A DNA stretch of 64,000 nt from NCBI RefSeq assembly GCF_000744775.1, contig NZ_JQMP01000003.1:930001-994000 (forward strand), in the 5' to 3' direction. The translations under genes were made by a program, and so were the position numbers. Shown one piece after another: positions 3,176 through 27,939 of the stretch. The DNA is from Thermorudis peleae. GTDB taxonomy: Bacteria > Chloroflexota > Chloroflexia > Thermomicrobiales > Thermomicrobiaceae. The notes under the pieces are model-generated. The model saw only the letters and a program-made list of their open reading frames with translations, was not told the DNA's origin and did no database searches. How positions within the stretch are numbered: the first letter of the stretch is position 1; every line of letters starts with the position of its first letter.

Positions 3176-3341
3176 TTTTCAATCCCTCCTCGGTACGGGC
3201 AAAACCTGTCCGCGCTGCGGGAAGGAGCCCTGATCGTGCGGAGTTTCAATCCCTCATAGGTACGGGCAAAACGATGGCGACGCGTGGTTCCCCGCTCTCC
3301 GCGCGTGGACGGTTTCAATCCCTCATAGATACGGGCAAAAC
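3176..3341 (-). repeat. Degenerate leader-distal end of the CRISPR array
   Basis: The first repeat copy departs from the consensus at three positions (its first base as drawn on the plus strand, and positions 14 and 16). The third copy has one G-to-A change at position 18. Decay of terminal repeats is the usual sign of the old, leader-distal end and fixes the polarity of the array. Confidence 0.9.
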
Positions 3342-5370
3342 CCGGCACCGGCAGCTGAAGACGGGGAAGGAACTCCCCGTTTCAATCCCTCATAGGTACG
3401 GGCAAAACTGGAATATCGCCACTGACCTCGAGATCAACGACGACGTCGTTTCAATCCCTCATAGGTACGGGCAAAACCGCACATCTCGATGCCGTGATCG
3501 ACCACCTCCAGCAAGTTTCAATCCCTCATAGGTACGGGCAAAACATGGTGACCGCCGTCACGTTCACCGCGTCGTCAATGTTTCAATCCCTCATAGGTAC
3601 GGGCAAAACGTTGTTGCAGGAATTTCCTATGTCATTGAGGATATCGCGTTTCAATCCCTCATAGGTACGGGCAAAACACTTCGTCATTTCCTTGGAAGAC
3701 CAGGCGACTGGGTGTTTCAATCCCTCATAGGTACGGGCAAAACATCAAGCCTGGATAGACAACGTCCGTGCTGGGAACAGTTTCAATCCCTCATAGGTAC
3801 GGGCAAAACAAGTGGCGCCGGGAGTGTACGCTGACGCGCAAGGACGCGTTTCAATCCCTCATAGGTACGGGCAAAACTGGAATGGCAAGCGTCTGCTGCC
3901 CAACGGCGTCAAAGGTTTCAATCCCTCATAGGTACGGGCAAAACTTTCGGCATCGTATCCCCCCAACGTCCTAGTACTCATGTTTCAATCCCTCATAGGT
4001 ACGGGCAAAACCTGGGTCTCCGTTGTGCGCCAGCAGTCGATTCAAGATGTTTCAATCCCTCATAGGTACGGGCAAAACCCCTCGGCCAAAGTCGTCGACG
4101 ACGACAAGCAGGCGAGTTTCAATCCCTCATAGGTACGGGCAAAACGAACGTTGTTCCTCACGAAATCAGGCGTGCGGCCCTGTTTCAATCCCTCATAGGT
4201 ACGGGCAAAACGCGGCAGGCTGAACAAGGCTGCCGCAGAACTCCTGTGTTTCAATCCCTCATAGGTACGGGCAAAACCTCGCTCTTCATCCGGGTCGATG
4301 GGGTGCTCGCCGTCAGTTTCAATCCCTCATAGGTACGGGCAAAACCCGTCCGCTGCTTCCGCGGGTCGATGTAGACGAGGACCCCGGGTTTCAATCCCTC
4401 ATAGGTACGGGCAAAACCGTGGAGGCTGGCGCAGTCGGGGTGCTGACGCTCACCGGTTTCAATCCCTCATAGGTACGGGCAAAACCGGATGGATGCCTGG
4501 ACGGCAGGGTCACGCAGCCAGCGGGTTTCAATCCCTCATAGGTACGGGCAAAACATGGCAGCCCGGCCTGCTTCAGCATCTCGACGAGTGGTTTCAATCC
4601 CTCATAGGTACGGGCAAAACTCAACGGTGTTCCGGCGGAGGAGATGCGGCGGATGCACGTTTCAATCCCTCATAGGTACGGGCAAAACGATCTTCTGGCG
4701 GCCCAGCCGAACGGGCTGCCAGAAGTGTTTCAATCCCTCATAGGTACGGGCAAAACTCTGGCTGAGTCGCACGAATGGGGGGGTTGTCGTGTCTCTTGTT
4801 TCAATCCCTCATAGGTACGGGCAAAACTGTACAGCGGGGGCAGGGCGGTGAAGGAACGACAGGAGCACGTTTCAATCCCTCATAGGTACGGGCAAAACTG
4901 ATTGTTAGAACATCTTCGAGCGGGAAGTCTTCTTCAATGAGTTTCAATCCCTCATAGGTACGGGCAAAACGCCCGGCGACGACACCTCCTACGACACCGC
5001 GATGGGGTTTCAATCCCTCATAGGTACGGGCAAAACACGGGTGGCCGTCCTGGCTCATTGTCGCTGGCATGATCGTTTCAATCCCTCATAGGTACGGGCA
5101 AAACCCTCGAGCGAGCCTGGAGCCAGGCGGCTGCGAGGTCAGTTTCAATCCCTCATAGGTACGGGCAAAACAGAAGCGTGTCCTACCGATAGATATCCGG
5201 CGAGCGTGTTTCAATCCCTCATAGGTACGGGCAAAACGAACCACTGGACGACGTGTGGCTTCCCGTCATCGCGGGTTTCAATCCCTCATAGGTACGGGCA
5301 AAACATACGCCCATAGTCGTCGCACACGACGAGGAGGCGAGTTTCAATCCCTCATAGGTACGGGCAAAAC

Positions 5371-5492
5371 CTGAAGCCGGCGTCGTGGGTTGCCGATCTC
5401 AAGGCGGCGCTTGCGCAGATCGACCAGGACGCCGTCTTCCGTGCGCACCGGGCGCGGGTCGTGGAGCAGGTGTGGGATGGGACCACGCCGAT
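5371..5492 (-). other. Oversized 122-nt CRISPR spacer
   Basis: Between perfect repeats at 5341-5370 and 5493-5522 lies 122 nt where 34-42 nt is normal. No internal repeat remnant is visible. On the plus strand, the frame beginning at 5371 is open throughout and reads like real protein (segment DLKAALAQIDQDAVF), so it may be captured coding DNA. Fusion of two spacers with loss of the repeat between them is an alternative. Confidence 0.9.
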
Positions 5493-8400
5493 GTTTCAAT
5501 CCCTCATAGGTACGGGCAAAACGCAAGTTCAGGGCGCACGCAGTCTCTGCGTCGCCCAGGTTTCAATCCCTCATAGGTACGGGCAAAACTCCAGATATTT
5601 TCCCAGGTATTCTTGAGGTCCTGGAGTTTCAATCCCTCATAGGTACGGGCAAAACGAATAGCGGGCAAGAAACAGATCAATCGCCTCTCGAAGTTTCAAT
5701 CCCTCATAGGTACGGGCAAAACGTGCCGCGCGGATCTTGCTCGGACGCGAAGCAGAGGTTTCAATCCCTCATAGGTACGGGCAAAACCGTATTCTTGACC
5801 GTACTTGCGATCTCTTGTGCCTTGCGCTGGTTTCAATCCCTCATAGGTACGGGCAAAACGGCCGTCCTCAAGTCTCCGAGGACGGCCACATTGAAGTTTC
5901 AATCCCTCATAGGTACGGGCAAAACGACATTGAGGACGCGCTGGCGCAGATGCTGTTGGGCGTTTCAATCCCTCATAGGTACGGGCAAAACAACCACCTC
6001 TCCACCAACGAGGCTTTCGCCCTGGGCGTCGTTTCAATCCCTCATAGGTACGGGCAAAACGGAGAGGTAGTTCGTCCCGTTATACCCACCGACGGCGTAG
6101 TTTCAATCCCTCATAGGTACGGGCAAAACTGACCCACGTCGCTGGTTTCACGGCCTTGACAGCCTCGTTTCAATCCCTCATAGGTACGGGCAAAACGGAG
6201 ACTGCCCCCGAGCATTGGGAGTGAGGACGGTGGTGGGTTTCAATCCCTCATAGGTACGGGCAAAACGTGCAACCACAGTGTCAAGCCCCAGTCGGGGGGA
6301 TAAGTTTCAATCCCTCATAGGTACGGGCAAAACCGGGGCACAGTCGTGCTACAGTGTCCCTGGCGGAAAAAGTTTCAATCCCTCATAGGTACGGGCAAAA
6401 CTTTTGCAGGTCTGGTACGCACACGAATGGTACCAGAGTTTCAATCCCTCATAGGTACGGGCAAAACAACCGTAGCGGTCAACGTTCCCAATCTCGGTAA
6501 TCTGTTTCAATCCCTCATAGGTACGGGCAAAACCAGCTCGCCCGGCTCCTCGCAGCCATAGAGGCCGGGAAGTTTCAATCCCTCATAGGTACGGGCAAAA
6601 CCGAGAATCCGGTCGAGAAGACTCTTGGCGTCGCCAAGTTTCAATCCCTCATAGGTACGGGCAAAACTCATTCTCTCCCACGAACGCGCCGAGCGGATCG
6701 CGAGTTTCAATCCCTCATAGGTACGGGCAAAACGCCACACCTGCATTGCCGTCCCCCTTTCCTTCACTCGTTTCAATCCCTCATAGGTACGGGCAAAACT
6801 GCCGACACGCCCAAACTGGCTCTCATGCCAGAAGATGGCGTTTCAATCCCTCATAGGTACGGGCAAAACATGAGCCCGAGCGCGGCGATGGCAATCGGCA
6901 AGCCAGTTTCAATCCCTCATAGGTACGGGCAAAACAAATGCCGACGACTGGTGTGACTGTGGCGGATTCGGTGTTTCAATCCCTCATAGGTACGGGCAAA
7001 ACGAAGATAGCCGTACCCTGGATGCCGCCGTGCTTCCTGTTTCAATCCCTCATAGGTACGGGCAAAACCGCGAGCGCCCAGTCCAGAAGAACACGGGCGA
7101 GGGCCCGTTTCAATCCCTCATAGGTACGGGCAAAACTCGGGCCCGAACAAAGAGCCCTATCGGTTGCTCGAGTTTCAATCCCTCATAGGTACGGGCAAAA
7201 CCGAGCTTCTTGGTACCCGAGTAGAGGCCGCTCGCCATGTTTCAATCCCTCATAGGTACGGGCAAAACCCGCGCAGGCCGGGCACATTGGCCGCCCGGCG
7301 ACCGTTTCAATCCCTCATAGGTACGGGCAAAACTTTGCCACGCTCACGCCGACTGACACGGGGAATATGTTTCAATCCCTCATAGGTACGGGCAAAACTC
7401 CAGCCACCGTGAGGGTTACCGTTGCTGGCGAGCCGCGTTTCAATCCCTCATAGGTACGGGCAAAACCGAGAACATCGTATCGAGCTGCGTCTCCATGCGG
7501 GGTTTCAATCCCTCATAGGTACGGGCAAAACGGATTGTGACGGAGTGCTGGTGGTTCGGGATCGACAGTTTCAATCCCTCATAGGTACGGGCAAAACATG
7601 AGCCCGAGCGTGGTGATGGCAATCGGCAAGCCAGTTTCAATCCCTCATAGGTACGGGCAAAACCCGCGCTCGGCGTCGAGCCGAACGCGATCGCCTGGCC
7701 GAGTTTCAATCCCTCATAGGTACGGGCAAAACCCGCCCACTTCCTGGTCGGCCGCGACGGACGCGTCGCCGTTTCAATCCCTCATAGGTACGGGCAAAAC
7801 TCTGGTACTCGAGCCGATCCGCCCCCTTCGGAGTGTCGTTTCAATCCCTCATAGGTACGGGCAAAACCTGGCCAAGTATCGGTCATGAATTTCCCTGACC
7901 AGTCATGGTTTCAATCCCTCATAGGTACGGGCAAAACGGAAGTACCTATACGTGGAGGCTTGCCATCAGACCAGTTTCAATCCCTCATAGGTACGGGCAA
8001 AACAGGGAGAAGAACGGCCATGACTGACGTGGAAATCGCGTTTCAATCCCTCATAGGTACGGGCAAAACGGCAATGGGGCGCACAGATGTTGTCTGCCCC
8101 GGCGACTGTTTCAATCCCTCATAGGTACGGGCAAAACCGATACGCCGGGTATCCCACGGGCGCGTTCTGAGCATGGGGTTTCAATCCCTCATAGGTACGG
8201 GCAAAACTCTCCCCAGCGGCGGTGCCAGCGCCGCTGGGGGTCATCGTTTCAATCCCTCATAGGTACGGGCAAAACCCCGGGGGCGTCGTGTCTGGTGTCG
8301 CCGGAGGGAAGTTTCAATCCCTCATAGGTACGGGCAAAACGGGGAGGTGTTCGATCGCCCCGAACCGCTTGGCCACGTTTCAATCCCTCATAGGTACGGG

Positions 8401-11400
8401 CAAAACGATCGCCGCAGCACTCGACCTCCCCCAGGCAACGGTGTTTCAATCCCTCATAGGTACGGGCAAAACGCGCGTCCAGCTGAACAACGCGGCGACG
8501 GCCCTGACGCGGGTTTCAATCCCTCATAGGTACGGGCAAAACTCGCGCCGCTCGTCCCGGCGAACACCCCGGCCTGCATCAGGTGTTTCAATCCCTCATA
8601 GGTACGGGCAAAACACGAGGGACGGGCTCTTGCATATCGCCCACGCGTCTGGCGTTTCAATCCCTCATAGGTACGGGCAAAACCGAGGGGCAGTTACAGC
8701 GCGTGATGTACTTCTGGGTGGTTTCAATCCCTCATAGGTACGGGCAAAACACGTATGCTGGGTCACTGTCCATCGTCGGCCTCCTTCGTTTCAATCCCTC
8801 ATAGGTACGGGCAAAACGACCGGGGCGAAGAGCGTCTCGCTGTCGTAGTCGTGTTTCAATCCCTCATAGGTACGGGCAAAACCCTGACGCTCACCAGCTT
8901 GCTCTCCGACGCCGAGGACCTCGTTTCAATCCCTCATAGGTACGGGCAAAACTTGGAGGCGAGCCACTGGCGGCCGCTCCTCTGCCGTGTTTCAATCCCT
9001 CATAGGTACGGGCAAAACGGCCGCCATTCCCGAACGACCGCGCGCGGACGAAGGTTTCAATCCCTCATAGGTACGGGCAAAACGTGCCACTCACCTGGAG
9101 TTCCACGGTGAAGGTGAGGTTTCAATCCCTCATAGGTACGGGCAAAACTGGAGGTCTGGACACCATGAAGAAGGATGTCGAAAAGTTTCAATCCCTCATA
9201 GGTACGGGCAAAACGCGGAAGGTGCCGTCTGGCGCCGTGTAGGCAAGTGGCGTTTCAATCCCTCATAGGTACGGGCAAAACCCAGGAAATGTCGTCCCCG
9301 CCAATCGCCGCTTGCTGGGTTTCAATCCCTCATAGGTACGGGCAAAACGAGCACCCACTCGGCGACGTCGCCGAGTGGCACGAGTTTCAATCCCTCATAG
9401 GTACGGGCAAAACGATGACAGCGCACGCGGCGTGGTCGGCGGAATTGCGCTGTTTCAATCCCTCATAGGTACGGGCAAAACGATGCGCCGCCCACGGCGT
9501 ACCCACGCTGTGCCGAGTTTCAATCCCTCATAGGTACGGGCAAAACGCCGGGGGGTATTGACAATGGAATATGGCGGGTGCTAGTTTCAATCCCTCATAG
9601 GTACGGGCAAAACTGGGCCGACCTGGGTGAGTTGCTCGACTGTCTGGTTAGTTTCAATCCCTCATAGGTACGGGCAAAACTCAAGCCCCCTGGCGATCGA
9701 ATCTGACCGCCAGGGGTCGTTTCAATCCCTCATAGGTACGGGCAAAACTCCTCGAGCACCTGCAGACCGTCATCACCGACCTCGAGGTTTCAATCCCTCA
9801 TAGGTACGGGCAAAACACAGCCTCACACGTCACTCCGTACCGCGCCAAACGGCGGTTTCAATCCCTCATAGGTACGGGCAAAACGTTCATGCTCATGACG
9901 GGACTGCGGCCGGGAGAAGGTTTCAATCCCTCATAGGTACGGGCAAAACGTCCTGCGCATCTGTGAACGGTACGGCCTTGACCCGCTCCTGTTTCAATCC
10001 CTCATAGGTACGGGCAAAACAAAGGATCGGTCTCCCATGATGACAGATGACGGTGGTCGTTTCAATCCCTCATAGGTACGGGCAAAACCGCCAAGCGCAT
10101 CGAGATCGCCGATACGCCAGGCGCCAGTTTCAATCCCTCATAGGTACGGGCAAAACGATGCCGACGGGAAGTGGATCGCGACGGCGAAGGTCGTTTCAAT
10201 CCCTCATAGGTACGGGCAAAACGCATGACCACGGCGAGCGGCACGATCGCCCGTCTCTGCGTTTCAATCCCTCATAGGTACGGGCAAAACTCCTGGACGT
10301 GTACGGTGCGACGCGCTGGCTTGGCAGTTTCAATCCCTCATAGGTACGGGCAAAACGCACTCCCCATTGGCGTTGGTACGGTCACCGTTGATGGGTTTCA
10401 ATCCCTCATAGGTACGGGCAAAACGGGAGCGCGGCGAGTTCCTCGTTCTTGAAAAAGCTTGGCTGTTTCAATCCCTCATAGGTACGGGCAAAACCCTCGC
10501 CGCCCTCATTGATGAGGCGCGCCAGCTCGCTGTTTCAATCCCTCATAGGTACGGGCAAAACATCAATGCCGCCGTCAAGCAACTCCGCGCCATCGGCGGT
10601 TTCAATCCCTCATAGGTACGGGCAAAACCATTCTCTCCCACGAACGCGCGGATCGGATCGCGAGTTTCAATCCCTCATAGGTACGGGCAAAACCGTGGCC
10701 AGTCATGTATCGGCCAGGAATTTCCAGGACGTTTCAATCCCTCATAGGTACGGGCAAAACTCGGGCCCGAACAAAGAGCCCTATCGGTTGCTCGAGTTTC
10801 AATCCCTCATAGGTACGGGCAAAACCGGGTGCACGATGCCAAGCCTGCACCCGAAGCACTTCGTTTCAATCCCTCATAGGTACGGGCAAAACCATGAATC
10901 GTGGCTCGGACTACAATCGGGTATGGCGTTTCAATCCCTCATAGGTACGGGCAAAACTGAGTCGGCGCTTCCAAGGTTGGCTTGGGTTGCCGAGTTTCAA
11001 TCCCTCATAGGTACGGGCAAAACCCATTGTCGTTCTCCCTTCGTGTTGCTGCATGAAACGGAGTTTCAATCCCTCATAGGTACGGGCAAAACTGACCGCC
11101 AAACTGGGTTATGGCCGTGATGACGGCCGTGTTTCAATCCCTCATAGGTACGGGCAAAACTCTGCCCGAATCGCCGTCACGACCTCGATAACATCCTGTT
11201 TCAATCCCTCATAGGTACGGGCAAAACGCCCTCGTGCTGATCGACGTCGATCGCGCGATTGCTGTTTCAATCCCTCATAGGTACGGGCAAAACTGTACGG
11301 ACACAGTGTCCGGACGCTGTGCACGAACACTAGTTTCAATCCCTCATAGGTACGGGCAAAACTGAAGGTCAATCCAGAACGGTTCTGGCAGTATCTTGAA

Positions 11401-14400
11401 GTTTCAATCCCTCATAGGTACGGGCAAAACGTCGCGAAGCTCGATGCGGACACCGTCCCAGTCGATCACGGTTTCAATCCCTCATAGGTACGGGCAAAAC
11501 TCGGTGGAGGATTTCTCGAGTACTGGCGGTACCTTGTCCGGTTTCAATCCCTCATAGGTACGGGCAAAACGACGCATCGAAAACGCCCTCCACGGCGCAA
11601 CCTTCGAAGTTTCAATCCCTCATAGGTACGGGCAAAACTATCGGAATCCAGTTGATGCACGTGGTGATTGCCGCAGTTTCAATCCCTCATAGGTACGGGC
11701 AAAACTACCCCACTGCTCGATTTCGTTTCCCTGACCAATGCGGTTTCAATCCCTCATAGGTACGGGCAAAACTCGAACCATTCCCCCTGATCATGGTTAT
11801 GGGGATGGTGTTTCAATCCCTCATAGGTACGGGCAAAACCGAGAAGTATCGTCTTCTCGATGATTCTTATCGCTAGTTTCAATCCCTCATAGGTACGGGC
11901 AAAACCGGGAGGAACGGCTGCCACGCCGTGCCGGTGTCGAGGTTTCAATCCCTCATAGGTACGGGCAAAACATTGGGCGTCCCGGAGGATTCGGCAAAAG
12001 GTATCGCGATGTTTCAATCCCTCATAGGTACGGGCAAAACAATGCCCGGAGGCGTGGAGGAAGAGCAGCGTCACGCTGGTTTCAATCCCTCATAGGTACG
12101 GGCAAAACCGGGAACCAGGGTTGCTACCGCCACGAACGATTTCAGCAGTTTCAATCCCTCATAGGTACGGGCAAAACTGCCACGCGATGAAGGCGACCGC
12201 CACAACAGCGGCAAGTTTCAATCCCTCATAGGTACGGGCAAAACCCGCGACGGCCTGCTCCACATCGCGCACGCCTCCGGCGTTTCAATCCCTCATAGGT
12301 ACGGGCAAAACCAAAGGCGTGGCAGAAGGCGCCGCGTGCGATGACCGTGGTTTCAATCCCTCATAGGTACGGGCAAAACGGTTGTCCCGATATTGACGAC
12401 TTTCTGATTACTCTGTTTCAATCCCTCATAGGTACGGGCAAAACGCCTGGAAGCTCGCCGAGGACTTGTTGTTTTCCTATCTCGAGTTTCAATCCCTCAT
12501 AGGTACGGGCAAAACGCAGGACGCTCGTGAGGCCCTGTCGCTCACGCCGGAGTTTCAATCCCTCATAGGTACGGGCAAAACATGTCCGGTATGTCACCGA
12601 GGAACAACCGGGAGAACGTTTCAATCCCTCATAGGTACGGGCAAAACGGAATGCGTGCACGCTTGGTGAAGCCGAGCTTTTTGTTTCAATCCCTCATAGG
12701 TACGGGCAAAACGCTGCCTCCGCCCCGAGTCGCCTGAGGAGCACATCCGTTTCAATCCCTCATAGGTACGGGCAAAACCGCCGGGCAGTGGGATTCCGTA
12801 GTGAACGAATTCACGTTTCAATCCCTCATAGGTACGGGCAAAACTACGGGCCGATTGTGGCCCGCTTTCTCGAAATCGGTGTTTCAATCCCTCATAGGTA
12901 CGGGCAAAACGACAACCTGGGACAACGCCGAAACAAGAGGTCGTGTGTTTCAATCCCTCATAGGTACGGGCAAAACTTTTCAGATCAACTTGAAGGCGCA
13001 TCCGAACGTCTCAGAGGTTTCAATCCCTCATAGGTACGGGCAAAACCGAGACAGAGACCCGCGCCGTGGCCGTGCCCGCGGAGAGTTTCAATCCCTCATA
13101 GGTACGGGCAAAACCTTGCCCACGAGCGTGACGCGCTCGTTCTGCTTGAAGGGTTTCAATCCCTCATAGGTACGGGCAAAACTCACCGAGATAGCGTCGC
13201 GCGATCCGCACCAACATGGACGTTTCAATCCCTCATAGGTACGGGCAAAACTTGAATATCACTGGTTCAATCACAGGTACATTGTCAAGCCCGTTTCAAT
13301 CCCTCATAGGTACGGGCAAAACCGTTTCTGGTGAAGCGAACGAGGATTGTTCGGCATCGGTTTCAATCCCTCATAGGTACGGGCAAAACTCCGTCCAGGT
13401 CGTCCACGTCCCATCGGATCGGACAGTTTCAATCCCTCATAGGTACGGGCAAAACACGGACGACCGCCGCCACATAGCCCTCGGGATCATGTTTCAATCC
13501 CTCATAGGTACGGGCAAAACGCTCGCGTGCCGTGGAGAAGCCTTCGAGCTCGATGAGTTTCAATCCCTCATAGGTACGGGCAAAACTGCTGGGGGCGCCC
13601 CTATCAGGATGTCCCGCTGACGTTTCAATCCCTCATAGGTACGGGCAAAACTCTTCTGAGGCTGACGGCCCGGCCCCGGCATCAGCTGTTTCAATCCCTC
13701 ATAGGTACGGGCAAAACCCCGCTCTGCCAAGTGTGTGCCGCCCGTCGTGCAATAGTTTCAATCCCTCATAGGTACGGGCAAAACTCGTCGATCTCGCCGA
13801 CCCATCGCCGCACCTCAGCCTCGTTTCAATCCCTCATAGGTACGGGCAAAACTGCCTCGCCAGCCCTGCCATGCCAGCCCTGCCACGCCCAGTTTCAATC
13901 CCTCATAGGTACGGGCAAAACCCAAGAGCCGCCTGAAGGGGGATATACCGATCTAGGGTTTCAATCCCTCATAGGTACGGGCAAAACGCGTCCTCGGCAC
14001 CGCCAGGCCTTCCGCCTCAAGCAGTTTCAATCCCTCATAGGTACGGGCAAAACCTTGCCATCGACGGTGCCCCGTACAAACAGGGCACCGGTTTCAATCC
14101 CTCATAGGTACGGGCAAAACTCTTGGTATAGAAGAGGATGACGTCGTGAATACGGCCAGTTTCAATCCCTCATAGGTACGGGCAAAACGAGGGTTGTCGT
14201 GGTCGTGTCGGCGGCCGGCAGGAGTTTCAATCCCTCATAGGTACGGGCAAAACGCCGCTGATGACCGTCGTAGACCTCGCCGTCAGGCCCAAGTTTCAAT
14301 CCCTCATAGGTACGGGCAAAACCCAAGCCCGGCTGGGAGTATCGGGAGGTCCATCCCTAGTTTCAATCCCTCATAGGTACGGGCAAAACGAACCCGCAGC

Positions 14401-15668
14401 ATCTGCCGCACGACCCGGCGTATGTGTTTCAATCCCTCATAGGTACGGGCAAAACAGCGAACGGCGCACCGAAGAACGCCCGCAGGATCGAGGTTTCAAT
14501 CCCTCATAGGTACGGGCAAAACTTGGGCTCGTGGTAACGAGGTCCTGGAAGGTGCGCTGTTTCAATCCCTCATAGGTACGGGCAAAACCGCCAGGTTCGG
14601 TCATGCACCGCCGTCCAGGGGTGCAGTTTCAATCCCTCATAGGTACGGGCAAAACTTTGGTCCGAAGACCGCATCGAGCACGAGTTTGATGGGTTTCAAT
14701 CCCTCATAGGTACGGGCAAAACTTCGACGCGCTGGGCAATGGTATCGCCACGATAGAGCAGTTTCAATCCCTCATAGGTACGGGCAAAACGCACGTCAGT
14801 GCCAGCCGCCTCATTTGCGCGCTTTTGCGCGGTTTCAATCCCTCATAGGTACGGGCAAAACGCGGTCAAGGGCGGTGGCAAGGGCACGATCAAAGGTTTC
14901 AATCCCTCATAGGTACGGGCAAAACGATCAGCTCGCTTCCACTCTCCGCATCTCCCGTTCAGCTGGTTTCAATCCCTCATAGGTACGGGCAAAACCCTCG
15001 CCAGCCCTGCCATGCCAGCCCTGCCACGCCCAGTTTCAATCCCTCATAGGTACGGGCAAAACGCTGGCGCTTTCTATTCCGGAGGAATTCAACGAAATCA
15101 GTTTCAATCCCTCATAGGTACGGGCAAAACGGCGGAGAATCCGTGAATTCCGTGAGCAGCGAGGATGTTTCAATCCCTCATAGGTACGGGCAAAACCCGC
15201 TGACCAAGAACGAACGTGGACGGCTCAACGAGGGTTTCAATCCCTCATAGGTACGGGCAAAACAAGCGGCCGTACTGCGCCGACCTGAAGGTGCTGGCGT
15301 TGTTTCAATCCCTCATAGGTACGGGCAAAACCGCTCGCTGAGCGTGGCTTCATTCTCCGATACACCGTGTTTCAATCCCTCATAGGTACGGGCAAAACGC
15401 CATGTTCCCAGTGTCGGCCGCGTCCATCACAAGATGTTTCAATCCCTCATAGGTACGGGCAAAACAAGCAACGTGTCGACGTCAAGGTCATCGTAGGGGA
15501 AGTTTCAATCCCTCATAGGTACGGGCAAAACTTTGCGGATCCGCTTGAGCACGTCGCGGTGGAGCACCGTTTCAATCCCTCATAGGTACGGGCAAAACGG
15601 GTCCAGGTAGGCCAGGAGACCAGCGGCAATCACCGGTCGTTTCAATCCCTCATAGGTACGGGCAAAAC

Positions 15669-20206: not shown

Positions 20207-21472
20207 TCAGTCGTCGCTTGCGGCAGCGTGCGCGGGCTGTGGCGGCGCGGGCTCGCCGAGCGCGTAATCGTCCGCCCACAGGCCCGGCGCCCACCAGCGA
20301 CTCAGCACGGCCACGAGGACACAGGCCGTGCCGCCGAGTGCCATCGCTAGCCGCGCGCCGAACACACTGGCAAGCAGCCCGGCCTGGAACTGCCCCAGGC
20401 GCGGGCCGGTCAGCGCGAACAGCGAGGCCAGCGCGCCGACGCGGCCGCGGTAGTCGTCGGGCGTCACCAGCTGGCGCACGGTGTGGCGCATGACCATGCT
20501 AATCGCGTCCAGCCCGCCAGCGAGCGCCAGCAGCACCAGTGCGAGCGGCAGCCACGGTGCCAGGCCAAAGAGCCCCAGCGCTAGCCCATAGCCGATGACA
20601 ACCGTTACCATGACGCGGCCAGGGTGCTGGGGCGTGCGCAGGAAGGCGACGAGCAGCTCGCCGCTGACCGCGCCAACGCTCAGCGCCGTGTAGAGCCAGC
20701 CGAGCCCCTCCGGGCCGATCCGGAAGATGTCGCGCGCGAACACCGGCAAGAGGCCGACCGAGGAGACGAGCGCGGTCGCCAGAAAGTCGAGTAGCATCAA
20801 CTGCCACAGGATCGGCCGTTGGCGGACGAAGCGCAGTCCCTCGACCAGTGCTGCCAGGCTGCGGCGGTCGCGCGCGACGACCTGCTTTGGCGGGTGCATC
20901 AGCGTCAGGGCGACGACGACGAGCAGGTAGGTGAGCGCGTTGAGCCAGAAGCAGGCGGCGGTGCCAAACGTGCTGATGAGCACGCCGCCGAGCGCCGGGC
21001 CGAGGATCGAGGCGCTGTCGGAGGCGAGGACGTTGAGCGTGAGGGCGTTGGTCAGCCGCTCGCGTGGCACAAGGGCGGGGATCAACGCCTGGCGCGCGGG
21101 ACTGTCGAACGCCATCGCGCCGGAGATGGCCATGGCAAAGAGGTAGAGGGTGAGGGTGGTGGCGCGGCCGGTGCTCACCAGCAGGGCGAGGGCAAGGAGG
21201 AGGGTGGCGGCGGTGCTCTGGGTGACGAGCAGCAGCTTGCGCCGGTCGACCTGGTCGGCGAGCGTGCCGCCAAAGAGCGAGAGCAGGACGGTCGGCACGG
21301 CGCGGGCGATGGCGATGCCGCCGAGCTGCGCGGTCGAGCCGGTGAGCACGTAGATCAGCCAGCTGAGCGCGACCGTCTGCAGCTGCACGCCGAACATCGA
21401 GATGAACTGGCCGATCCAGAGCAAGCGGAAGTCACGATAGCGCAAGGCCGCAAAGGCCTGCGGCATACGCAT
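20207..21472 (-). CDS. Major facilitator superfamily exporter (EntS/MFS_3-like)
   Basis: 421 residues with about twelve predicted hydrophobic helices. The N-terminus (FAALRYRDFRLLWIGQFIS) and the cytoplasmic loop after helix 2 (GGTLADQVDRRKLLL, the MFS motif A region) are characteristic of the MFS_3/enterobactin-exporter-like group of drug and siderophore efflux proteins. A second loop, TPDDYRGRVGAL, is the equivalent in the C-terminal half. The tail is hydrophilic and Ala/Pro-rich. GAGGAG lies 9 bases upstream of the chosen ATG. The substrate is unknown and no siderophore genes are nearby. Its upstream side faces the large tandem-repeat region, so any promoter must lie in or before that region. 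Confidence 0.88.
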   Translation of the reverse strand: MRMPQAFAALRYRDFRLLWIGQFISMFGVQLQTVALSWLIYVLTGSTAQLGGIAIARAVPTVLLSLFGGTLADQVDRRKLLLVTQSTAATLLLALALLVSTGRATTLTLYLFAMAISGAMAFDSPARQALIPALVPRERLTNALTLNVLASDSASILGPALGGVLISTFGTAACFWLNALTYLLVVVALTLMHPPKQVVARDRRSLAALVEGLRFVRQRPILWQLMLLDFLATALVSSVGLLPVFARDIFRIGPEGLGWLYTALSVGAVSGELLVAFLRTPQHPGRVMVTVVIGYGLALGLFGLAPWLPLALVLLALAGGLDAISMVMRHTVRQLVTPDDYRGRVGALASLFALTGPRLGQFQAGLLASVFGARLAMALGGTACVLVAVLSRWWAPGLWADDYALGEPAPPQPAHAAASDD

Positions 21473-21650
21473 ACGCCGTTGCTCCTCGTCCCTGTGGCGG
21501 AGCTCCCGCCTTCATGTTGCGCAAGCCTACCATCCCATTGCCCCGCTGTCGAGACCGGTGCCGGGTATTCCGGCGGTCGTGCATTGCGTGATACGTCCGC
21601 GGAGGCGGCCCGCGCTGGGTGCGCCGGTGCCGGGGAGACCCGGGTGCACG

Positions 21651-22030
21651 TGGTTGACATGGTTGACAGGGTTGACAGTGGTTGAGCGGGAGCGGTTGAG
21701 TGTGGTTGAGTGGTTGAGTGCGGTTGAGTGCGGTTGACGGGGGTAACGGTGGTTGAACCGGTTGAACGTGGTTGAAGGTGGTTGAAACGGTTGAAAGCGG
21801 CCAAAAACCGCGTGACGACGCGGAAGTTCTTTCAACCACCGCGACCACACACCGGTTGAAAGGGTTGAATGCGGGGAATGCCGGTGATGGTGGTTGACAG
21901 TGGTTGACACGGTTGACAGTGGTTGACGGGTTGACAGTGGTTGACGGGTTGACAGTGGTTGACAGGGGTAACGGTGGTTGACGGAATTGATGTCGGTGAG
22001 AGTGGTTGACAGTGGTTGACGTGGTTGACA
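21651..22030 (+). repeat. Left arm of GGTTGA tandem-repeat block
   Basis: Short units built on GGTTGA plus a variable next base, at mostly 8-11-bp spacing. They come in runs by type: GTTGAC units (21651-21682), GTTGAG units (21680-21732), GTTGAA units (21750-21800) ending in cassette 1, then GTTGAC units (21891-22029) ending in cassette 2. Non-unit inserts are short, for example 21868-21890. I recognise no described repeat family. Confidence 0.9.
21789..21862 (+). other. Hairpin cassette, copy 1 (A type)
   Basis: A 74-bp element. It opens with GGTTGAAAG, then a small hairpin GCGG-ccaaaaa-CCGC (21797-21811), a conserved stretch TGACGACGCGGAA, and a 9-bp hairpin CTTTCAACC (21829-21837) / GGTTGAAAG (21854-21862) with a 16-nt loop. 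It is flanked by units of the matching GGTTGAA type. It could be a structured RNA or a DNA site; no known family is recognised. Confidence 0.75.
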
Positions 22031-22097
22031 AGGGTCAAAAAATCCCATGAAGACGCGGAAACGCTGTCAACCACCCCGACCACGCACTGGTTGACAG
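22023..22097 (+). other. Hairpin cassette, copy 2 (C type)
   Basis: A 75-bp element with the same layout: GGTTGACA start, GGG-tcaaaaaat-CCC hairpin (22032-22046), conserved TGAAGACGCGGAA, and a 9-bp hairpin CTGTCAACC (22064-22072) / GGTTGACAG (22089-22097) with a 16-nt loop. Both sides of the stem changed relative to copy 1, so pairing is kept. Upstream units are of the GGTTGAC type. Confidence 0.75.
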
Positions 22098-22167
22098 CCG
22101 TGCCTGCCCCGTCCACGACCACCACCCACCCCTGTGCTCCTCACCGCTCACGTGCCACCGGCCTACC

Positions 22168-22553
22168 CGTTTCAACCGTTTCAACCACTTCAACCGCTTC
22201 AACCGTTTCAACCACTTCAACCGTTTCAACCACTTCAACCACTTCAACCGCTTCAACCACCTTCAACCGCTTCAACCGTTTCAACCACTTCAACCACCTT
22301 CAACCGCTTCAACCACTTCAACCGTTTCAACCACCTTCAACCGCTTCAACCGCGTTCAACCACGGTACCACTGCAACCAGCGCACCTGCTGTCAACCCTG
22401 TCAACCACGTCAACCGCGTCAACCACGTCAACCGCGTCAACCGCGTCAACCATGTCAACCGCGTCAACCACGTCAACCGTGTCAACCACGTCAACCACGT
22501 CAACCACTGTCAACCGTGTCAACCACTGTCAACCGCACTCAACCGACTCAACC
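22168..22553 (-). repeat. Right arm of GGTTGA tandem-repeat block, inverted
   Basis: The same units on the opposite strand, mostly with a strict 9-bp period: TTCAACC units (22168-22362), then GTCAACC units (22391-22541), then ACTCAACC units (22538-22553) leading into cassette 3. The left and right arms therefore form a large imperfect inverted repeat around a unit-free centre at 22099-22167. Confidence 0.92.
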
Positions 22554-22618
22554 GGTGCTGGGTCAGGGTGGTTGAGTGGATTTCCGCGTTGTCATGGGGT
22601 TTTTGCCCGTACTCAACC
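22546..22618 (-). other. Hairpin cassette, copy 3 (G type)
   Basis: A 73-bp element on the minus strand: GGTTGAGTA start (22618 downward), hairpin of GGG and CCC around CAAAAA (22596-22608), conserved TGACAACGCGGAA, then an 8-bp hairpin ACTCAACC / GGTTGAGT (22546-22553 with 22570-22577) and a 16-nt loop. Adjacent units are of the GGTTGAG type. Confidence 0.75.
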
Positions 22619-22671
22619 GACTCAACCACTGGTGCACGGTTGACGGGTGGTGGAGTTGCGTGGGGGCTGGG

Positions 22672-22759
22672 TGGTGTCATATCCCAGGGTGCAGCCGGTG
22701 CGGGCTGAGACGGTCGGAGCAGGGACACGGCGTCGAGCAGTCTGGTGTCATATCCCAGG
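22672..22759. repeat. 17-nt exact direct repeat pair, 71 bp apart
   Basis: TGGTGTCATATCCCAGG occurs at 22672-22688 and 22743-22759. The flanking bases differ. No function is recognised. Confidence 0.8.
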
Positions 22760-22913
22760 TCTCAGCACGCGCGGGCGCCGCAGGCGAAGGGGTCACACGC
22801 GCGGTGCCACAGGCGCGGGCGCCGCGAGCTGGCAGCGGGCTCACGCTCCGTTTCCCGGCAGATTGCCGGCCTCCCGGTTGGCGCGGGAGTATGCACACAG
22901 CCTGGTATGGCCG

Positions 22914-23023: not shown

Positions 23024-24649
23024 CTAGCTGGTGCGCAGCAGGAAGCGCTGGATTTTGCCGCTCGGCGTCTTCGGCAGCTCGGGCACGAAGGCGAAGGCAC
23101 GCGGGTAGGCGTGGGCGCCGACGTGCTGCCGGACGACTGCCTGCAGCGCCTGCTCCAGTTCCGGCGTCGGCTGAAATCCCGGCCGCAACACCAGATAGGC
23201 CTTGATGATCTGCCCGCGCAACTCGTCGGGGACGCCGACCACCGCACACTCGGCGACTGCTGGGTGGGTGAGCAGGGCGCTTTCGACTTCGAAGGGGCCG
23301 ATCCGGTAGCCGGCGCTGAGGATGATGTCGTCGGAGCGGCCGCTGAAGAAGAAGGCGCCCTCGGCGTCGCAGCTGGCGTCGTCGCCAGTGAGGTAGTACC
23401 GGCCGTCGGGCGAGAAGCGCGCTGCCGTTGCCTCAGGATCGCCGACGTAGCCGGCAAACCAGAAGAGCGGCGACTGCGCTGTGTCGATGGCCAGGTGGCC
23501 TTCCTGGCCTGGCCCGCACTCCTGTCCCTGCGCATCGAGGATGACCGGGCGAAACCCCGGCATGGCGTAGCCCATCGAGCCGGGCTTCAGCGGGCGCTGC
23601 CACGCCGGATGATGATGGTTGTTGATGACCATGCCCAGCTCGGTCTGGCCGTAGTGGTCGTGGATCGGGACGCCAAACGTCTGCGTGGCCCAGGTGATCA
23701 CCTCCGGGTTGAGCGGCTCCCCGGCGCTGGAGATCACCCGCAGGCGCGTCTGCGTGCCGGGCTGGAGGCCGGCTGCCCGCAGTGCCCGGAATGCCGTCGG
23801 CGCCGCCGCCCAGTTCGTGACGCCGTAGGCGTCGAGCAGCCAGAACGTGATCTTCGGATCAAATGGCCCGCGATACCAGAGCGTTGCCTTGCCGAGCAGC
23901 AGCGGCCCGATCAGCCCGTAGTACAGGCCGTAGGCCCAGCCGGGGTCGGCCATGTTCCAGAACATGTCATCGTCGCGTAGGTCGAGGCCGATACGCATGT
24001 ACATCTCAACGGAGGCCAGGGCTTTGAGCGGCACGGGCACACCCTTTGGGTGCCCGGTCGTGCCCGAGGTATAGATGAGCACCATCGGGTCGTCAGGGCG
24101 GATGAGCACGGGATCGGTGACTGGATCAGCGCGCTCGATTTCGTGGTAGAAGCTGAGGTCGCCGCGCTCGATGCCGCGTCCGCCGCCCTCGCCGACGGTC
24201 ACGATGGTGCGGCCATCGGCGACGAGGTCGGCTGGGATTTTCGCCCGCTGGTTCGCTGCCGTGACGATCACCTGTGCGTTGCTGCCGCGCACGCGGTAGG
24301 CCACGGCTTCGGGGCCGAAGGCGGTGAAGAGGGGGACGTAGACCGCGCCGAGCCGCCACGTGGCGAGCGCGGTGATGAGCAGCTCTGGCCCGCGGGGCAA
24401 GAAGCCAGCGACGCAGCTCCCCGCCTGCACGCCGAGGGCGCGGAGGACGCCAGCAAATGCCGCCGACTGGGCGTGCAGGTCGCGAAAGGTGATGCGGGCC
24501 GTCGTGCCGCTCTCGTCCTCGAAGAAGAGGGCAATCCGCTCGGGAACGCGGGCGTGGCGGTCGCAGAGCAACACAGCAGCGTTGCCCGGCGCGCTCGTGT
24601 ACTGCTGCAGCAGCTGAGGCACGTCAACCGATGCGGTCGCCATAGGCAT
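23024..24649 (-). CDS. AMP-dependent acyl-CoA synthetase (acetyl/medium-chain acyl-CoA ligase-like)
   Basis: 541 residues of the ANL adenylating family. The P-loop motif YTSGTTGHPKG is at about residue 195, the A5-type motif HDHYGQTELG at about 335, the Asp of YLTGDDA at about 410, the hinge region GRSDDIILSAGYRIGPFEVE after that, and the catalytic Lys in PKTPSGKIQR near the C-terminus. It activates a carboxylic acid to acyl-AMP and then acyl-CoA. Size and motifs are closest to acetyl-CoA synthetase-like and medium-chain ligases, but the chain length is not readable. The start is uncertain between ATG at 24649 and 24643; a GGAG site fits the second better. The following minus-strand direction and the neighbouring dehydrogenase upstream suggest acyl-CoA metabolism. 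Confidence 0.9.
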   Translation of the reverse strand: MPMATASVDVPQLLQQYTSAPGNAAVLLCDRHARVPERIALFFEDESGTTARITFRDLHAQSAAFAGVLRALGVQAGSCVAGFLPRGPELLITALATWRLGAVYVPLFTAFGPEAVAYRVRGSNAQVIVTAANQRAKIPADLVADGRTIVTVGEGGGRGIERGDLSFYHEIERADPVTDPVLIRPDDPMVLIYTSGTTGHPKGVPVPLKALASVEMYMRIGLDLRDDDMFWNMADPGWAYGLYYGLIGPLLLGKATLWYRGPFDPKITFWLLDAYGVTNWAAAPTAFRALRAAGLQPGTQTRLRVISSAGEPLNPEVITWATQTFGVPIHDHYGQTELGMVINNHHHPAWQRPLKPGSMGYAMPGFRPVILDAQGQECGPGQEGHLAIDTAQSPLFWFAGYVGDPEATAARFSPDGRYYLTGDDASCDAEGAFFFSGRSDDIILSAGYRIGPFEVESALLTHPAVAECAVVGVPDELRGQIIKAYLVLRPGFQPTPELEQALQAVVRQHVGAHAYPRAFAFVPELPKTPSGKIQRFLLRTS

Positions 24650-26802: not shown

Positions 26803-26856
26803 CGCATGACGCGAGCAGTGCGCACGCGGCAGGTGGAAGGATGGAGGGGACGAGTT

Positions 26857-27939
26857 ATGCAGGATGAGGTCGCACGCTTTCTCGAGATGCTGGACGAGCG
26901 CCGCGCCCTCTCCGGGAACACCGTTGCTGCGTATCGCAATGACCTTGCCCAGTTCACGCAGTTTCTGGCTGATGGCCATGGGGTACAGTCCTGGCAGATG
27001 CTGACATCACATCACCTCGAGCACTTCCTCTCCTATCTCTACAGCCGCAAGTACGCCGACACGACGGTTGCGCGCAAGATCTCGGCTGTCAAGAGCTTCT
27101 GCCGCTATCTCTATACCCGGGGAGTGCTGCACGAAAACCTGGCCGCCCAGCTCCCGACACCCCGTACCACCTACTTCAAGCCCCGGGCCATTACCCCAAG
27201 CGAAGTCGCGGCCTTGCTCAACACCGTTGCCATCGACGACTCGCCGGAGGGCCTCCGCGACTATGCCATGTTCCTCACGCTCTACTCGACCGGCATGCGG
27301 GTGAGCGAACTGACCGCCCTGAACGTCAGCGACGTGAGCCTGCACGAGGCGCGGATTCGCATCGGGCGCCAGACGCCGCGCGAGCGGGAAGTCCCCGTAA
27401 ACGAGGAGACGGTCGGGGCGCTTGAACGCTATCTCGAGGAGGGCCGCCCGCAGCTCGTGTGCAATAACCGCGGCGAGCTGGCGCTGTTCATTAACCATCG
27501 CGGCAAGCGGCTGACCCGCCAGGGCTTCTGGCTGATCCTCAAACGCTATGCTGATCTTGCGGGCATCCCGGACATTACGCCACACATCCTGCGCCATTCC
27601 TTCGCGTTCCATGCCCTGGAGCAGGGCTGGCACCCAGCGGAGTTACAACGCGTCCTCGGCCATCTGAGCCTTTCGACGACGTTGGCCTATCAGCACCTGC
27701 TGCGCCAGGGCGACCATCGCCAGCACCGAGTGACGGCGCAGACGGCAGCGTCGTGGGACGACGCCGCGGCATACTTCGAGCAGGCGAGCCATGACGCGGC
27801 GGTGGCACGTGGCCCGTCGACGACACCGGCGGCAACGAGGCCGTCGCCCGAGCACACTGCTGACCCGCTCGCCACCGACGAACACGATGGTACGGGAGGG
27901 GACAATGAGCGCACCACACCCGGTGACGGTCTCGCTTGA
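26857..27939 (+). CDS. XerC/XerD-type tyrosine recombinase
   Basis: 360 residues from the ATG at 26857, preceded by GGAGGGG; the frame opens 17 codons earlier without a ribosome site. The N-terminal SAM-like core-binding domain (about 1-90) has the typical [12 protein letters not shown]. The catalytic domain shows Arg in [10 protein letters not shown], HxxR in HILRHSF, His in [10 protein letters not shown] and the nucleophile Tyr in LAYQHLL. About 60 extra residues follow the Tyr, which is longer than classical Xer proteins and of low complexity. It could resolve chromosome dimers or act in an element; no dif or att site was identified. Its last 35 bp overlap the start of the glycyl-tRNA synthetase gene. 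Confidence 0.9.

Follow-up and report, generated by a model that had tools for sequence, protein, structure and literature searches.

The intergenic repeat block at positions 21641-22650 of the window (the whole 64,000-nt stretch of DNA that was analysed) is most likely an array of initiator-binding sites (iterons) that has expanded and become orphaned; its source would be the replication origin of integrative or plasmid-like elements encoding a Rep protein that combines a primase-helicase with a winged helix. This reading is built on sequence comparison, and four features were seen directly: the anatomy of the block, a second copy within a rep gene on contig C1 of the same genome, homologous arrays in which the unit has been swapped, and a core common to them. 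The repeat word looks as if it varies between elements, with a short central motif kept constant in this bacterial family.

Anatomy of the repeat block

A total of 74 units (31 GGTTGA and 43 TCAACC) were counted within 1.1 kb of the window (21601-22720), compared with 0.4 units per 986 bp expected under a first-order Markov model of the window (maximum of 4 in 200 simulations). The initial annotation had described tens of copies in two opposing arms (GGTTGA at 21651-22030, TCAACC at 22168-22553), and the counts bear this out, with 28 of the 31 GGTTGA copies falling in 21652-22028 and 39 of the 43 TCAACC copies in 22172-22553. The unit-free centre, placed there at 22099-22167, was found at 22095-22171, and the array's right end lies at ~22643, a few bases past the end given there. 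A strict 9-bp period had been reported for the second arm; 9 bp is indeed the prevailing same-strand spacing (31 of 38 steps), but the other 7 steps are of 10 bp and the period is not strict. Spacing in the GGTTGA arm is mostly 8-10 bp. The base following TTGA is A in 29, C in 35 and G in 10 of the units, and the reported sorting of runs by this letter was confirmed: only 8 letter changes occur along the 74 units, as against at least 30 in permuted order (0 of 10,000 permutations were as low as 8). The features of the block and its neighbours are as follows.

20207-21472, minus strand: MFS transporter gene, its start facing the block (name judged by eye from the translation)
21641..22650, no strand assigned: whole orphan array, between the MFS transporter and acyl-CoA synthetase genes
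21652..21795, plus strand: GGTTGA run, letters ordered C, G, (C), A
21789..21868, plus strand: core A, consisting of unit, CCGCGTGACGACGCGG palindrome, inverted unit TTTCAACC, spacer and unit
21892..22028, plus strand: GGTTGAC run (C type)
about 22023..22095, plus strand: core C, whose central palindrome has an altered left half (TCCCAT..ACGCGG)
22095..22171, no strand assigned: unit-free centre
22172..22361, minus strand: 21 TTCAACC units (A type), period mostly 9 bp
22392..22534, minus strand: 16 GTCAACC units (C type)
22536..22638 (core about 22548-22618), minus strand: core G with flanking G units, central stem altered (CCCC..GCGG)
23024-24649, minus strand: acyl-CoA synthetase gene, its end facing the block (name judged by eye from the translation)

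Three cores of ~70 nt, overlooked by the initial annotation, lie within the block, one for each letter class, and the letter of each core is that of its own runs. All follow one plan: a unit, a palindromic motif with a CGCGGAA end, an inverted unit, a spacer and a further unit. Because the block contains these structured cores, isolated opposite-strand units appear inside both arms (at 21832, 22067 and 22570). Unit and inverted unit match at 8 of 8 positions in each of cores A, C and G, so that the surrounding units are still matched in all three, while the palindrome or stem is damaged in two of the three, with the left half altered.

Two direct repeats beginning TGGTGTCATATCCCAGG lie just beyond the block (22672-22705 and 22743-22776), and 4 kb off it is an ORF read by eye from its translation as a XerC/D-like tyrosine recombinase (26806-27939), which is probably a host gene. 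The consensus of the parS partition site is TGTTNCACGTGNAACA; it had no match in the window with up to 2 mismatches. The window also carries a very large CRISPR array (3176-15668; 185 repeats of GTTTCAATCCCTCATAGGTACGGGCAAAAC type and 183 spacers).

Arrays within replication genes

When the block was used as a query against its own genome (G000; 2.93 Mb, four contigs), a single other place was returned, C1:286539-286851, on another contig than the block itself; core G and the copy at G000:C1:286539-286641 share 93% identity over 103 bp. This copy lies within a 1177-aa ORF whose product has a winged helix (HTH_24) and matches AAA_25 (Pfam, E 4e-34) and, weakly, Toprim. The array follows directly after the winged helix, and the reading frame stays open throughout it. 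Tandem short units with near-helical spacing, located at or in a rep gene, characterise iterons, and the C1 copy and its homologues show all of these; the window block has no rep gene beside it. Nor was a rep remnant found there, the full C1 Rep matching the window at E<=1e-5 solely within the array.

In elements of this type, the array forms an in-frame part of the rep gene, immediately past the winged-helix region, or else adjoins the 3' end of the gene. Judging from this anatomy, the C1 Rep is predicted to bind GGTTGA-type units through its winged helix; with the 9-bp units occupied, Rep would assemble and its ATPase would open the DNA, the palindromic core acting as a putative start or assembly site for priming or helicase loading. 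We infer that the in-gene arrays elsewhere function as origins. In the window, the array would stand alone in the chromosome as letter variants A, C and G, each with its own core. Of the initial guesses, a putative protein-binding array is the one favoured by the in-gene copy, the homologues and the core. No A-type or C-type array paired with its own Rep was found.

Homologous Reps carry arrays of the same plan in the same place as the C1 array, built from different units: GGTAGACG in G019 (same family; Rep 61% identical), AGCTCCACC in G002 and G007 (same family), and GCTAAYGGT in a Bacillota MAG. The latter was the sole find of a Rep-domain search in genome contigs, and the same search of viral contigs gave no related loci. 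In the Caldicellulosiruptor bescii plasmid pATHE01, of which pBAS2 is the sister plasmid (PMC3643907), an AAA family ATPase gene bears six ATTCACTCT units and then units around a core-like stretch, at the same position within the gene as in C1-type Reps; a literature search returned no published origin mapping for pATHE01. Plasmid homologues of the C1-type Rep include proteins annotated as RepA family helicases.

Across the phylum, a Rep homologue at E<=1e-20 was present in 21 of 400 genomes. Scoring covered 35 of the 37 loci with a homologue, including 12 phage and plasmid matches picked from 505 and 50 records. The 450 bp after the homologue match were repeat-rich (p<=0.01) in 14 of 35 loci versus 7 of 163 control windows placed in and upstream of the gene, the loci being non-independent since they include near-duplicates (L071/L076, L086/L087, L055/L056). 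Twenty of the 35 miss p<=0.05; among these, some (L072, L088 and L090) show a two-plus-two inverted set and others nothing.

The initial annotation had also proposed searching the block against the phylum. In the 400 genomes, with the genus of the window organism represented by one genome, the block DNA had a match adjoining such a Rep in only one of the 399 others, G228, where seven GGTTGA units follow a Rep 49% identical to that of C1. DNA matches in G445, G436, G214, G196, G423, G160, G362, G412 and G252 were dropped, as their loci had no Rep match.

An ordinary minisatellite or coding repeat with no tie to replication would account for the tandem growth of the block, as the earlier guess of a selfish minisatellite had it, and GGTTGA tandem repeats do arise elsewhere: four-fold GGTTGAVNN repeats occur in 69 viral contigs, and G039 has an 11-bp array. 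None of the viral repeats adjoins an AAA_25 relative (tblastn) and nearly all are without opposite-strand units, while the G039 array has no core and adjoins other genes; neither set was retained as related. The minisatellite reading does not explain cores that the block has in common with replication genes, nor the recurrence of arrays in homologous rep genes, and we consider it very improbable.

The core motif and a second array system

The pattern CCGCRTNNNRAYGCGGAAA (up to one mismatch) matched the window organism's own genome eight times, each time in such arrays, compared with one match for the reversed pattern. With a similar core pattern, 21 matches were obtained in 14 of 21 family genomes (reversed control, 3), of which 10 lie in iteron-like arrays (p = 0.005; G001, G011, G013, G016, G002, G007, G019 and three in G000), one (G007 C78:63476) is in sequence rich in repeats of a different sort and 10 are outside any array. 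At the G007 locus the core-like motif sits in a GAAGCC-rich repeat, with a related copy ~330 bp further on (L202/L206; C78:63476 and 63808). Three of the 11 matches outside iteron arrays lie on the 3' side of tRNA genes (Lys, Leu, Lys), at a distance of ~9 nt and in tRNA sense, in G010 and G001 (L191 1501-1520, L201 1501-1520 and L205 1501-1520).

Within this one family, the core CCGCRTNNNGACGCGGAAA recurs in the company of seven different units, and the replication genes concerned are of three kinds. The first kind encodes AAA_25 plus a winged helix (C1, G002, G007 and G019); the second is C4-like, named after a paralogue on contig C4 of the window genome, and has no useful Pfam match (C4, G001 and G011, 47-57% identical); in the third, the G013 array occupies the beginning of a DNA polymerase A gene that immediately follows a gene for Prim-Pol, and G016 has the same polymerase gene. 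A tyrosine integrase gene occurs within 5 kb in G001 and G013, the only relatives in which an integrase accompanies the replication genes; none was seen among the ORFs of the 16-18 kb around each of the C1 and C4 rep genes (C1 by eye).

The seven distinct units agree with their inverted partners at 55 of 56 positions in total; of 5040 possible pairings only the true one reaches this figure. Such a match is expected for sites read by one protein and is alone no proof of a hairpin. The suggestion that the block is a source of structured RNA was not upheld: Rfam families gave no match at E<=1 in 21400-22900, and single cores fold as DNA hairpins, unevenly (z from +0.56 to -6.73 for nine cores; G001, G019 and G002 fold best and window core G poorly). 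In the MAFFT alignments A1 and A2 the units are out of register.

The core may be a peptide motif under protein constraint, given that 8 of 9 in-gene sense-strand matches share one frame, encoding P-(H/R)-x-D-(A/G)-E. This reading is opposed by the other frame used in G019, by an antisense core in C4 and by the existence of non-coding copies, as well as by the use of CAT and GAA in the core though CAC and GAG mostly prevail. It is also conceivable, if improbable, that mobile elements of the family with unrelated Rep modules share a core hairpin read by the host (CCGCRTNNNGACGCGGAAA, possibly serving to load a primosome or primase) while each swaps in its own 9-bp iteron word, and that the block acts as a Rep trap of the chromosome with several specificities, one section for each letter variant, protecting the host from these elements.

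The C4 paralogue shares its first part with the C1 protein (84% over 381 residues) and does not share the ATPase part. The two N-terminal parts (L012 4996-6600 for C1, L061 7469-8600 for C4) each adjoin a different ATPase part, a pattern suggestive of domain exchange in the recent past. The C4 gene carries in-gene arrays of TCTGACGC units, and intergenic multi-core arrays of GCGTCAGAA begin ~1.2 kb past the two genes that follow it; GCGTCAGAA arrays are found again at C3:1327.8-1331.3 kb, around another gene. Orphan multi-core arrays therefore recur in this genome. Inverted GCGTCAG arrays (minus-strand array, genes, plus-strand array) bracket one or two putative secreted-protein genes at L178 9780-13252 and L061 10220-15280, with a rep-like gene present in one locus and absent from the other; the arrangement resembles an element bounded by arrays.

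Present role of the block and comparison with known systems

Given the lack of a rep gene and an altered palindrome in two of the three cores, while the units stay matched, we judge the block to be inactive as an origin today, and infer a decaying relic or a Rep-binding sink; the damage to the two palindromes may leave it unable to work as an origin. The three accounts of its present role that follow are alternatives within the iteron reading.

A second cis site of the C1 replicon, or an active origin, is suggested by cores and units that are the same as those in the C1 rep gene, and phage P4 offers a parallel in its second repeat site, crr. The block lies on a different contig from the C1 gene and two of its cores are altered; this role seems quite unlikely. 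The P4 ori/crr arrangement has an alpha-type gene near two repeat sites; no rep gene and no P4-like genes were seen around the block.

The best placed of the three, although we would stop a little short of calling it probable, is a relic: an element's origin left in the chromosome, its units spread by slippage and unequal exchange, and functionless today. The lack of a rep remnant, the damaged palindromes and the absence of the block from all 399 further genomes sampled in the phylum (where the array at the G228 rep gene comes nearest) agree with decay; units and inverted units matched at 8 of 8 positions in all three cores, the strict sorting of letters and the intergenic multi-core arrays of the second unit family do not.

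A sink or immunity array, titrating the Rep of resident or incoming related elements with its three letter classes corresponding to three Rep specificities, is a possibility that we hold to be rather doubtful. Units far outnumber cores and each letter class is internally consistent, as a sink would have it, and iteron-directed conflict between PLE and ICP1 (PMC8263062) provides a conceptual precedent. Against this, no element of A-type or C-type specificity was found, and none of the 183 CRISPR spacers of the window matches the block (a few weak 16-22-nt matches fall elsewhere).

Several described systems resemble the iteron reading of the block. Phage lambda ori has its iterons inside the initiator gene O, a likeness to the in-gene arrays, with an initiator unrelated to the present Rep. 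In SaPI/PICI Rep and SCCmec Cch2, the helicase uses its C-terminal domain to bind short repeats located immediately 3' of the gene that encodes it (PMC7581432), and the Rep/array logic proposed here is close to theirs. The present system differs in its RecA-type AAA_25 ATPase, in an array often located within the ORF, in a conserved palindromic core and in having an orphan block with several cores and no rep gene; integrase, Rep and ori sit together in one SaPI/PICI island, and the window block has no rep gene. P4 alpha, which binds repeats of the origin, is a single protein with Toprim-type primase, helicase and winged-helix parts (PMC4234260). The C1 Rep is likewise multi-domain (AAA_25, winged helix and the weak Toprim match), but its helicase is of another class, its array is in the gene and the orphan array is on another contig. 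In pRN1, the rep gene encodes a protein with a winged helix at its end and is immediately followed on its 3' side by structured DNA, the structure is kept as the sequence changes, and a Rep/core logic like the present proposal was put forward (PMC4234260); the same source describes pRN1 as lacking iterons, whereas tandem 9-bp units dominate the present arrays. RSF1010 oriV (RepA, RepB', RepC and ssi hairpins) pairs iterons with short stem-loops for priming (PMC4234260), in contrast to the present system, which has helicase, primase-like and DNA-binding parts in one protein and a core for which a priming role is proposed. Comparable logic was shown in part for PLE RepA (PMC7145576).

The initial statement that no described repeat family is like this one was too strong for the class, since iterons beside or inside rep genes have been described (PMC7581432, PMC4234260); for this particular Rep-array family, or for orphan arrays, a literature search with subscription journals largely outside its coverage returned no description.

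The finding ties the repeat block to an origin-like architecture that recurs at or in AAA_25/winged-helix rep genes of plasmids, phage records and chromosomes. A fast-changing binding word combined with a family-constant core would provide a sequence rule for finding the origins of integrative elements, and the series of units would form a natural set for learning how a winged helix reads a 9-bp word. The orphan block itself offers a way to test the idea that displaced origins are retained in chromosomes as initiator sinks.
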